Below, one piece after another: positions 1,911 through 15,111 of a stretch of DNA of 64,000 nucleotides (position 1 is the first letter of the stretch; each line of letters begins with the position of its first letter). The DNA is taken from the NCBI GenBank assembly GCA_018401755.1, contig JAGYKJ010000006.1, positions 310,001-374,000 on the forward strand, in the 5' to 3' direction. This stretch comes from Litorivicinus sp. Its GTDB lineage: Bacteria; Pseudomonadota; Gammaproteobacteria; Pseudomonadales; Litorivicinaceae. Below the pieces are notes generated by a model. It saw only the letters and a program-made list of their open reading frames with translations, had not been told where the DNA came from and did no database searches. The position numbers were made by a program, and so were the translations under genes.

Positions 1911-1949
1911 ATGGTGGCCAGAGAGGGAATCGAACCCCCGACACGAGGA
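1911..1949 (-). repeat. tRNA-Phe 3' fragment (att-like), copy 1
   Basis: The sequence matches the minus-strand 3' part of the tRNA-Phe gene at 15036-15111, from the CCA end (TGG on this strand) through the T-arm to GAGGA in the anticodon stem. It is 8 bp shorter than the other copies: after GAGGA the sequence becomes unrelated. It is the outermost of four such copies and marks the left edge of the quinoprotein region. Confidence 0.9.
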
Positions 1950-2222
1950 CTTAGATCAAATCTACTGCATCCCTCCGCAGCATGCGCTTCCAAACATCGG
2001 GCAAGGGTGGTGATGCTGAAGAGCAGGTCATGGAGGTGCTCAATGATTTCAAAGAGCGTGCTGGTTTCGCTTCTGATGAAGCGCGTGATCTATCCCGAGT
2101 CGCTGGAGCCATCCCAAGAAACAAGACAGGTACGCTGCTCATCTCGTCTTAAAGCGACAAAACTACGCGTAAAACCATGGCAGAGTAGATGGGCAAAGCG
2201 GAGGACGTGGGTCGAGAAATTG
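1950..2222. other. Intergenic junction region, no convincing gene
   Basis: This stretch follows the first tRNA fragment. A 56-codon frame from ATG at 1982 (MRFQTSGKGGDAEEQ) is open, but it has no recognisable family and no clear ribosome site. It may be a scrap of a larger gene left at the insertion junction. No RNA gene or repeat was seen. Confidence 0.4.
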
Positions 2223-2582
2223 TCAGGTCTGCTGGCATTCTGAATGTGTGGAAAGCGCATACAACACACCTGAAACTGCGGAAAACCGGTGCGTTGCAGG
2301 TTCTTTTTGCAAAACATCTAACACGCGAGTGGTAATTTCCTCACTGCTCCAGCGGGCTGGTAAACAGACAGGCTCCCCGTGCAGCACAAATGTGTATGGC
2401 TGTGCTTGAAGTCTTTCCCGTGTTTGGTGTCGCGCGCCTTCAATAACACCTAAAACAAAAGCCAAACAGGGCTCACGATCACGATCGCACTCAGCGAGAA
2501 ACGCGCCTACTGTCACGATACCGCCTTGGCCCTGCGCGCAGAGCGACAGCATTAGCGTCAATGCTGCGACAAGCGATCTCAA
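2223..2582 (-). CDS. Rap1a/Tai-like small exported protein
   Basis: This 119-residue protein has a signal peptide (LVAALTLMLSLCAQGQ) and four cysteines placed as in the Rap1a/Tai family (ECDRDREPCLAFVLG, later PVC and a C-terminal SEC). Members of that family are small periplasmic helical proteins, some of them T6SS immunity proteins; many have no known role. The start is TTG, overlapping the stop of the upstream cytochrome gene (TTGA), so both are made from one mRNA. Its pairing with a cytochrome and a PQQ enzyme suggests a helper role in periplasmic oxidation rather than immunity, but that is inference. Confidence 0.65.
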   Translation of the reverse strand: MRSLVAALTLMLSLCAQGQGGIVTVGAFLAECDRDREPCLAFVLGVIEGARHQTRERLQAQPYTFVLHGEPVCLPARWSSEEITTRVLDVLQKEPATHRFSAVSGVLYALSTHSECQQT

Positions 2583-2902
2583 ATATCGGGCGCCTTAACA
2601 CTGACCTCAAAGGCAGAATACCAAGCAGCCAAATGCTCGATGTTCTCTTTAGAAAGCCCTTGCGCAATTAGACTCATTCGACGGTCTTGGCGCATGCCTT
2701 TCTTGTAATCCATCAGTGCCTTCTCAAGATATAACGCACTCAATCCGGCCAAATTTGGGGCCTCTGGATCGCGAGACAAGCCATCCTTACCGTGGCAAGC
2801 GGAGCACTGAGCTGATAGCGATTTCCCTACCGCTGGATCACCTGCCCATGTTGGTGACACATAACATGCTACTGCTAAAACGGCCGCGAATACTGGTTTC
2901 AC
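2579..2902 (-). CDS. Small c-type cytochrome (c553-like)
   Basis: The product has a signal peptide and one haem-binding CSACHG motif early in the mature protein, with a distal Met-containing segment (GMRQDRRMSLIAQGLS) that could give the sixth ligand. It is about 107 residues, typical of cytochrome c553/c4-half proteins that carry electrons from periplasmic dehydrogenases to oxidases. I choose the GTG at 2902, which follows AAGGAG by six bases, over the upstream ATG of the ORF track. It lies directly downstream of the PQQ-enzyme gene and is its likely electron acceptor. Confidence 0.85.
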   Translation of the reverse strand: MKPVFAAVLAVACYVSPTWAGDPAVGKSLSAQCSACHGKDGLSRDPEAPNLAGLSALYLEKALMDYKKGMRQDRRMSLIAQGLSKENIEHLAAWYSAFEVSVKAPDI

Positions 2903-2935
2903 ATTCCGCTCCTTACTGTATTCACAAAGCGTAAA

Positions 2936-2962
2936 AAAACCCCGGCTCATCGCCGGGGTTTT
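2936..2962. terminator. Bidirectional terminator between PQQ enzyme and cytochrome genes
   Basis: The stem CCCCGGC / GCCGGGG is flanked by an A-run on one side and TTTT on the other, so it can act as an intrinsic terminator on both strands. It lies downstream of the 2977-4215 gene and upstream of the cytochrome start at 2902, so the PQQ enzyme is expected to be made in excess of the cytochrome. Confidence 0.85.
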
Positions 2963-2976
2963 CTGATAGCGATAGA

Positions 2977-13973: not shown

Positions 13974-14050
13974 GGCGTTTTGCATAATTATTGTCAAAAT
14001 ATCAATAACTTATTATTCCAATTTTGCGGTGTGCTACAGAATGTGCCAGA
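13974..14050 (+). repeat. Conserved cassette end, copy 3
   Basis: The block starts GGCGTTTTGCATAATTA and ends GTGTGCTACAGAATGTGCC. The interior is more diverged than in copies 1 and 2, but both borders are kept. It opens cassette C. From 14051 to 14172 I see no gene. Confidence 0.65.
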
Positions 14051-14172
14051 GAGTTTCGGCTTAGGCCATTAATCAAAACTGCTCTGTTCAGGGTAAGTCT
14101 GTCCTCGACGCCCTTCATGATGAGAAAGCCGTCATTTGAGTTGTCCTCCAATCTTGAATACGCGATACCAGA

Positions 14173-14814
14173 TTACCACGCAGCAGGTTTCGTGATTGAC
14201 GTGTTCGGAATCCGATAGGGTAGTTGAGAGGACTTCAAATATTCCGCTTTGATGAGTTTGTGCCAGTGGGTATGTCGGCGCAGTTCACTAGAAGCATGCC
14301 TTCCTGTTCCCTTCAGAATAGGCGAAACAAGCCCTACTCGGATGTTTGGAGTCAGATGTCTAATTTTTCTGACCACTGGCACCAAATCAGAATCGTTTGA
14401 ACAGAGAACAACCTGCTCGCATACACCAGTCAAAGCATCACACGCCATATCGACAGCAATGCTGACATCTGACTGTTTTTCTTCAAAGCGACGAAACTTC
14501 ACGTAATCCGGAGGCGGATTGAGATTTCTTTGAATCGATATGGACGCAATGATTTTCCCCTCGATGATTGAAACTAACTTTGGTCGATACTTCCTTAATG
14601 CTTGAAGATAAGTGCGTTGACGTTGTGGCGATTTTGGATCGTCAGACATTCGACCAAGTACTGGCGCTGTGTAATATTTAACTTGAAGTAGCTCTGAATC
14701 TTCGCTGAGCACGTTGTCTACAAAAAGTTGGAAAAGATCCAGCCATTTGTACTCAGATTTTCTCAAACATCCGTAATAAAGATTATATCCATCAATATAG
14801 ACGATAGTTTTCAT
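14173..14814 (-). CDS. NYN-domain (PIN-like) protein
   Basis: The 213-residue protein starts MKTIVYIDGYNLYYG and has further acidic motifs KQSDVSIAVDMACDAL and CSNDSDLVPVVRKI. These Asp residues form the metal site of NYN domains, which are PIN-like ribonucleases. I choose the ATG at 14814: the ORF-track extension runs through a terminator hairpin. It is the only gene of cassette C and, unlike the toxin pairs, faces left. Orphan NYN proteins are often linked to RNA decay or defence; no partner gene is present here. Confidence 0.85.
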   Translation of the reverse strand: MKTIVYIDGYNLYYGCLRKSEYKWLDLFQLFVDNVLSEDSELLQVKYYTAPVLGRMSDDPKSPQRQRTYLQALRKYRPKLVSIIEGKIIASISIQRNLNPPPDYVKFRRFEEKQSDVSIAVDMACDALTGVCEQVVLCSNDSDLVPVVRKIRHLTPNIRVGLVSPILKGTGRHASSELRRHTHWHKLIKAEYLKSSQLPYRIPNTSITKPAAW

Positions 14815-14835
14815 CAGATTGCTTATCTCGGAAAT

Positions 14836-14859
14836 GAAAAAGCCACCCGAAGGTGGCTT
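14836..14859 (-). terminator. Intrinsic terminator downstream of tRNA-Phe
   Basis: On the minus strand AGCCACC-TTCG-GGTGGCT is followed by TTTTT, a textbook intrinsic terminator with a UUCG-type loop. It stands 180 bp beyond the tRNA-Phe 3' end and just before the NYN gene. It would end the tRNA primary transcript and isolate the cassette gene from it. Confidence 0.85.
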
Positions 14860-15035
14860 ATCTCCTAGAGAGCGAACACGCACATCGCGTCGGTCACTAG
14901 GGCAGTTATCAAAAGGATAGCCAACTACTGAACGCTGGTCAACATGCACCCTCGTCCAATGCGGATGGGATGGAGTGATCAATCGTGTCTAATGAATATC
15001 GGCCATCCCCCGTTTATGGAGTAGAGCCGAAATTA

Positions 15036-15111
15036 TGGTGGCCAGAGAGGGAATCGAACCCCCGACACGAGGATTTTCAATCCTCTGCTCTACCAACTGA
15101 GCTATCTGGCC
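15036..15111 (-). tRNA. tRNA-Phe (GAA), intact
   Basis: The 76-nt gene folds as a complete tRNA: acceptor GGCCAGA pairs with TCTGGCC, the anticodon loop contains GAA, and CCA is encoded. It lies downstream of yggX as in other gammaproteobacteria. Its 3' half (15035-15081) is the template of the three partial copies to the left, so it is the live attachment site of the array; each insertion to its left would have rebuilt the full gene. Confidence 0.97.

Follow-up and report, generated by a model that had tools for sequence, protein, structure and literature searches.

Two additive cassette arrays at tRNA-Phe and tRNA-Cys genes of Litorivicinus whose units lack an integrase

The genome of Litorivicinus sp. 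(GCA_018401755.1) possesses two additive arrays of gene cassettes, anchored at the tRNA-Phe and tRNA-Cys genes, whose units carry no integrase and were probably inserted by a tyrosine integrase supplied in trans. The insertion sites and the units are defined by shared sequences, the content of the loci varies among related genomes, and units of cassette size have been transferred between species. Integrons and dif modules are the well-known movers of one-gene units without a recombinase of their own. If minimal toxin-antitoxin cassettes also move via tRNA genes, small genomes that lack integrons possess a counterpart of them, and the piecewise growth of "additive" islands in marine bacteria would be explained.

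Results

The tRNA-Phe array

We analyzed a window of 64,000 nucleotides (contig JAGYKJ010000006.1, positions 310,001 to 374,000 of the forward strand). The intact tRNA-Phe gene (GAA; ARAGORN) is located on the minus strand at 15036-15111 and represents the target, i.e., the attB-like gene. A 47-bp core (15035-15081) corresponds to the 3' half of this gene between the CCA end and the anticodon loop, and two identical copies of the core are present at 13927-13973 and 13126-13172; a truncated core at 1911-1949 matches over 39 bp, then diverges, and has no arm behind it (all cores on the forward strand). These four copies of the tRNA-Phe 3' half, and the 47-bp core common to the last three, had been described in the original prediction and were recovered here. 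The search of the genome for more cores, proposed there as a check, revealed four further copies directly upstream of the window (C5 ~304766, ~306084, ~307157 and ~308009, C5 being the 538-kb contig that carries the array). The units behind tRNA-Phe are therefore real, but the array consists of eight of them rather than the three that had been counted and spans about 20 kb (C5:304766-325111), with the window starting inside it. The core farthest from the tRNA lacks 5 bp, whereas the three closest to the tRNA are perfect, as would result from the insertion of new units at the tRNA. An assembly artefact, which had been named as a possible refutation, is unlikely, since independent assemblies hold single cassettes with the same ends.

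From the far end towards tRNA-Phe, the units encode PrlF/YhaV, ParE/ParD (in reversed gene order), a Gp49-like toxin with a HI1420-type antitoxin, a formamidase-like protein (in a unit of 3.9 kb), the proteins of a 10.3-kb PQQ segment, a broken RelE with NadS, Gp49/HTH_3, and a NYN protein alone. The 3.9-kb unit, with core, arm and the formamidase-like gene, starts upstream of the window at C5:308009; its right part (1-1910, forward strand) ends with a second copy of the NadS gene (1583-1900, forward strand), identical in DNA and preceded only by the 3' end of relE. In fact, NadS together with its core at 1583-1949 is identical to 12798-13164 (note that the name NadS is based on weak matches below the cut-off and on the position after relE). 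The PQQ segment (1950-12267) extends from the orphan core at 1911 to an orphan arm at 12268 and contains genes for PQQ synthesis and a PQQ-dependent dehydrogenase/ABC set. It is followed on the forward strand by a cassette with a frameshifted relE pseudogene and an intact NadS-like antitoxin gene (12268-13125; antitoxin 12798-13115). The unit proposed originally to hold a RelE/NadS pair has the arm but no core on its left, and only NadS is intact in it. The 801-bp cassette at 13126-13926 (forward strand) encodes a Gp49-like (HigB/RelE-type) toxin and an HTH_3 antitoxin (13614-13925), and the 1108-bp cassette at 13927-15034 (minus strand) a single NYN protein (~14173-14814, minus strand) that matches the candidate defence family HEC-09 of PADLOC.

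Often, the last gene of a unit terminates only a few bases ahead of the next core. No gene with the PF00589 domain was found anywhere in the array; integrase and transfer genes are gone, but the att sites have been kept. Packaging-hijack and phage-derived replication genes, as in phage satellites, are likewise absent from the small units, which contain only toxin/antitoxin or NYN genes. The view that these units are too small to bring an integrase, that they were inserted repeatedly and site-specifically at the tRNA gene, and that their layout is integron-like is supported.

A conserved arm behind the core

Six cassettes start with a core that is followed by a conserved arm of ~75 bp. The arm terminates near GTGTGCTACAGARTGTG, where several copies show a direct repeat of TGTGCTA with 12-bp spacing. 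The arm of the Gp49 cassette is located at 13173-13246 (with GTGTGCTACAGAGTGTG at 13228-13244) and that of the NYN cassette at 13974-14047 (with GTGTGCTACAGAATGTG at 14029-14045), whereas the RelE/NadS unit begins on its left with an arm without core (12268-12354; all on the forward strand). Core and arm together comprise ~110-120 bp, and the copies are roughly 80-90% alike. As no common sequence is present on the tRNA-distal side of the core among the units of the tRNA-Phe array, the att site looks one-armed. Furthermore, the PQQ segment seems to have split one core-plus-arm site, as it has a core without arm on one side and an arm without core on the other; joined, the orphan core and the orphan arm would give one site minus its central bases.

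Hairpin folding like that of attC is not a general feature of the sites: seven of eight fold no better than about 2 s.d. from shuffled sequences of the same base composition, the exception being one tRNA-Cys site (in genome G009), which folds well. Outside the genomes studied here, the arm was searched for in a collection of species genomes, where a single record, Litorivicinus sp. AH-657-M20, was retrieved (a search that may exclude records very close to the window), and in IMG/VR, where no fitting match and one chance phage match were obtained. The repeat pattern was not present among 321 genomes of the class. In the collections searched, the arm thus appears to be limited to Litorivicinus, other lineages and viruses being without it.

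A 60-bp sequence beside tRNA-Phe (14975-15034; C5:324975-325034) was considered as an att arm and rejected as a dispersed repeat. It occurs in ~9 copies in the genome and also in a few relatives, adjoins tRNA-Ser as well, and resembles REP/MITE-like repeats.

The tRNA-Cys array

A profile of the arm built from the Phe sites also detects sites at tRNA-Cys (E = 4e-6 to 6e-4), and through these matches a second array was located elsewhere in the genome, on contig C6. It consists of three cassettes (HTH_17/PIN_3, Phd/VapC and BrnT/BrnA), which carry a tRNA-Cys core and an arm related to the Phe arm. Compared with the Phe sites, the TGTGCTA block of the Cys sites is shifted towards the crossover by ~9 bp, close to one turn of the helix.

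Cassettes and islands in related genomes

The third tRNA-Cys cassette, BrnTA, is present as the sole cassette at tRNA-Cys in the related genome G010, with 91% DNA identity over 793/796 bp and exact core-to-core ends. Its left flanks are unrelated in the two genomes; past the right core, the genome studied here continues into another arm and G010 into the intact tRNA-Cys. The Phd/VapC cassette is 90% identical over 1059 bp to that of G002, whose contig stops inside the core following the cassette. A Zn-peptidase gene flanks both the Phd/VapC cassette of G002 and the BrnTA cassette of G010 with 88% DNA identity, although the cassettes there are different. In contrast to the 90-91% identity of the cassettes, the core genes that could be aligned next to tRNA-Phe reach only ~70% identity between our genome and G010 (about 3 kb aligned). 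Horizontal movement of integrase-less units of 0.8-1.1 kb between Litorivicinus species is therefore well supported by these comparisons, and the transfer of the minimal units was probably recent.

The original prediction would have failed if relatives carried the same units at fixed positions. In fact, presence and content of cassettes, as well as their number, differ among related genomes at the same locus, a tRNA gene whose 3' end is directly repeated. tRNA-Phe looks empty in G001, and G007 and G004 retain pieces of the older units of our genome beside it. G002 and G015 have in common an 8.9-kb transporter/formamidase island at tRNA-Phe with core and arm and without integrase (in L050 at 8618-17545, and in L049; the transporter is of the urea/amide type). 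Similarly, an amino-acid/PutA island with core and arm and without integrase is found at tRNA-Cys in G009 and G012 (16 kb in G009). In G003, tRNA-Cys is occupied by an 8.3-kb island that contains an integrase-like remnant of 94 aa.

Search for the recombinase

The integrase that had been proposed to build the array in trans was not found: the genome encodes three tyrosine recombinases, which were read as XerC, XerD and one integrase beside tRNA-Ser, and none of them as an integron integrase (the Xer names rest on scores and lengths). XerC/XerD-type genes are the only tyrosine recombinases in G003 and G010 (two matches each), and G002 has one full match and a fragment at a contig end. Neither an adjacent integrase-bearing element at the array in its own genome nor an intact integrase with this arm next to it was found.

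Several candidates for the helper were rejected. The tRNA-Ser integrase of this genome is located at a tRNA end without such an arm. It lies on the 5' side of tRNA-Ser (TGA) near a contig end (L113 6639-7973, contig C6), and the far end of its element was not found. DUF6538-type tyrosine integrases directly at tRNA-Phe (L063 in G016, contig C23; L054 in G009, contig C9) have a different flanking arm; several DUF6538 integrases share an arm of another kind (GCAGGCATATCAATGAGTTA-like). Remnants of such integrases are present at tRNA-Phe in G004, G008, G010, G019 and G020, and a relative is located at tRNA-Leu in G021. The site does therefore attract integrases, and integrase remnants adjoin tRNA-Cys as well as tRNA-Phe in relatives. 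The sole integrase tied to an arm-bearing island is the 94-aa remnant of G003, which has no Pfam or PHROG match and no relative in phages, plasmids or IMG/VR, and was dismissed as helper; its one distant relative within the order (434 aa) is without the arm. Serine recombinases were also discarded, being found only in our own genome. The most likely helper would be one that visits the genome and is then lost.

Discussion

We suggest that each unit is inserted as a circle, with an arm and a single core matching the tRNA, and that it would recombine with the tRNA-Phe or tRNA-Cys gene within the anticodon loop. The unit's own copy of the 3' half would restore the tRNA gene, and the unit would stay downstream, bounded by cores. 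Repeated rounds would stack units beside the tRNA, the farthest being the oldest. The cargo, which does not include an integrase, may be selfish or protective (toxin-antitoxin pairs, a candidate defence gene) or consist of metabolic operons. Recombination would be catalyzed in trans by the tyrosine integrase of a visiting element, and the arm may be the arm-type binding site of this integrase. Points against this explanation are that no intact integrase with the arm beside it was found and that the arm is present on one side only, which is unusual for lambda-type attP sites. Something moves genes between Litorivicinus genomes at minimal size, and the question of the helper becomes testable, with the att site, the arm and the candidate cassettes defined to the base.

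The units could also be shrunken remnants of complete integrative elements, immobile relics that have been stacked like CIMEs. Such decay and accretion is the accepted route to tandems at tRNA genes (PMC5704250), and the integrase remnants beside tRNA-Phe and tRNA-Cys in relatives, the relE pseudogene and the degenerate old cores are in line with it. However, the minimal units recur with unchanged ends and 90-91% identity in species whose alignable core genes reach only ~70%, so that transfer after the shrinkage would still be needed, and we consider this origin unlikely. Alternatively, cassettes might be exchanged between strains by homologous recombination (e.g., after DNA uptake) at core and arm or in the sequences flanking the tRNA, without any present-day site-specific enzyme. 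Core and arm offer a stretch of suitable length and similarity, the identity of the two NadS copies points to recombination or conversion, and some carriers have only XerC/XerD; yet the origin of the exact tRNA 3'-half boundaries is left unexplained, and the shared BrnTA cassette is preceded on its left by unrelated sequences, which makes this route quite improbable. The resident XerC/XerD pair, as the sole tyrosine recombinases found in G003 and G010 (and possibly represented by the match and fragment in G002), might move the cassettes in the manner of the pdif modules of Acinetobacter. This is highly improbable, as neither att site is dif-like: the best match has 14/28 mismatches, the same as shuffled sequence. 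An integrase supplied in trans remains our preferred explanation.

By their anatomy, the Litorivicinus arrays belong with additive islands and CIME accretion. The statement that no named system of this form exists was too strong, as marine and freshwater bacteria are known to possess additive flexible genomic islands marked by repeats of the tRNA 3' end, namely Alteromonas (PMC4119200), 'Ca. Actinomarinales' (PMC7771536) and 'Ca. Methylopumilus' (fGI-2, PMC10872708; islands of 330 bp to 42 kb). These are described as having a tRNA target, cassettes gained or lost between strains, and direct repeats of the tRNA 3' end at their ends, and the Litorivicinus arrays share the conserved tRNA target, the cassette turnover and the repeats. 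In the descriptions consulted, however, no common arm beside the repeat, no toxin-antitoxin array, and no pair of tRNA targets with one arm is mentioned for these islands. CIMEs lack an integrase, have both att ends preserved and form tandems at target genes, for instance at the 3' end of a tRNA (PMC5704250), and their accretion accounts for tRNA tandems through decay. They are, however, relics of ICEs or IMEs beside another element and are mobilised in cis with an adjacent ICE or IME that uses the same site, whereas in Litorivicinus near-identical minimal cassettes occur across species without a partner element.

Integrons and CALIN resemble the arrays in their ordered small toxin-antitoxin cassettes with the recombination site just past the gene, but use folded attC sites instead of a tRNA core with an arm. 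The pdif modules of Acinetobacter (PMC6449649) are also small and depend on a recombinase in trans, but their 28-bp dif-like sites are recognized by XerC/XerD, whereas the Litorivicinus sites are tRNA-derived. Tycheposons, too, are cargo islands at tRNA genes of streamlined aquatic bacteria; they are described as carrying a tyrosine recombinase (PMC10872708), whereas the Litorivicinus units are without such an element-borne gene. What is new in evidence are toxin-antitoxin pairs as standard cargo of minimal units, the use of one shared, one-sided arm with two different tRNA cores, and the transfer between species of exactly bounded units of ~0.8-1.1 kb. It is conceivable, though we put this forward only tentatively, that a third cassette system with the recombinase in trans exists besides integrons and dif modules, in which a dedicated or visiting tyrosine integrase would act on a one-armed att site (tRNA core and shared arm), and toxin-antitoxin or defence cassettes would be captured as circles and stacked at several tRNAs, where they would serve streamlined marine bacteria as a defence bank.

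A PQQ island is also found at a tRNA in Alteromonas (PMC4119200, in the description given there). In Litorivicinus, the PQQ biosynthesis genes and the PQQ-linked ABC and beta-propeller genes of the segment are located between the identical NadS copies (~380 bp), and this segment could be lost by homologous recombination between these direct repeats.
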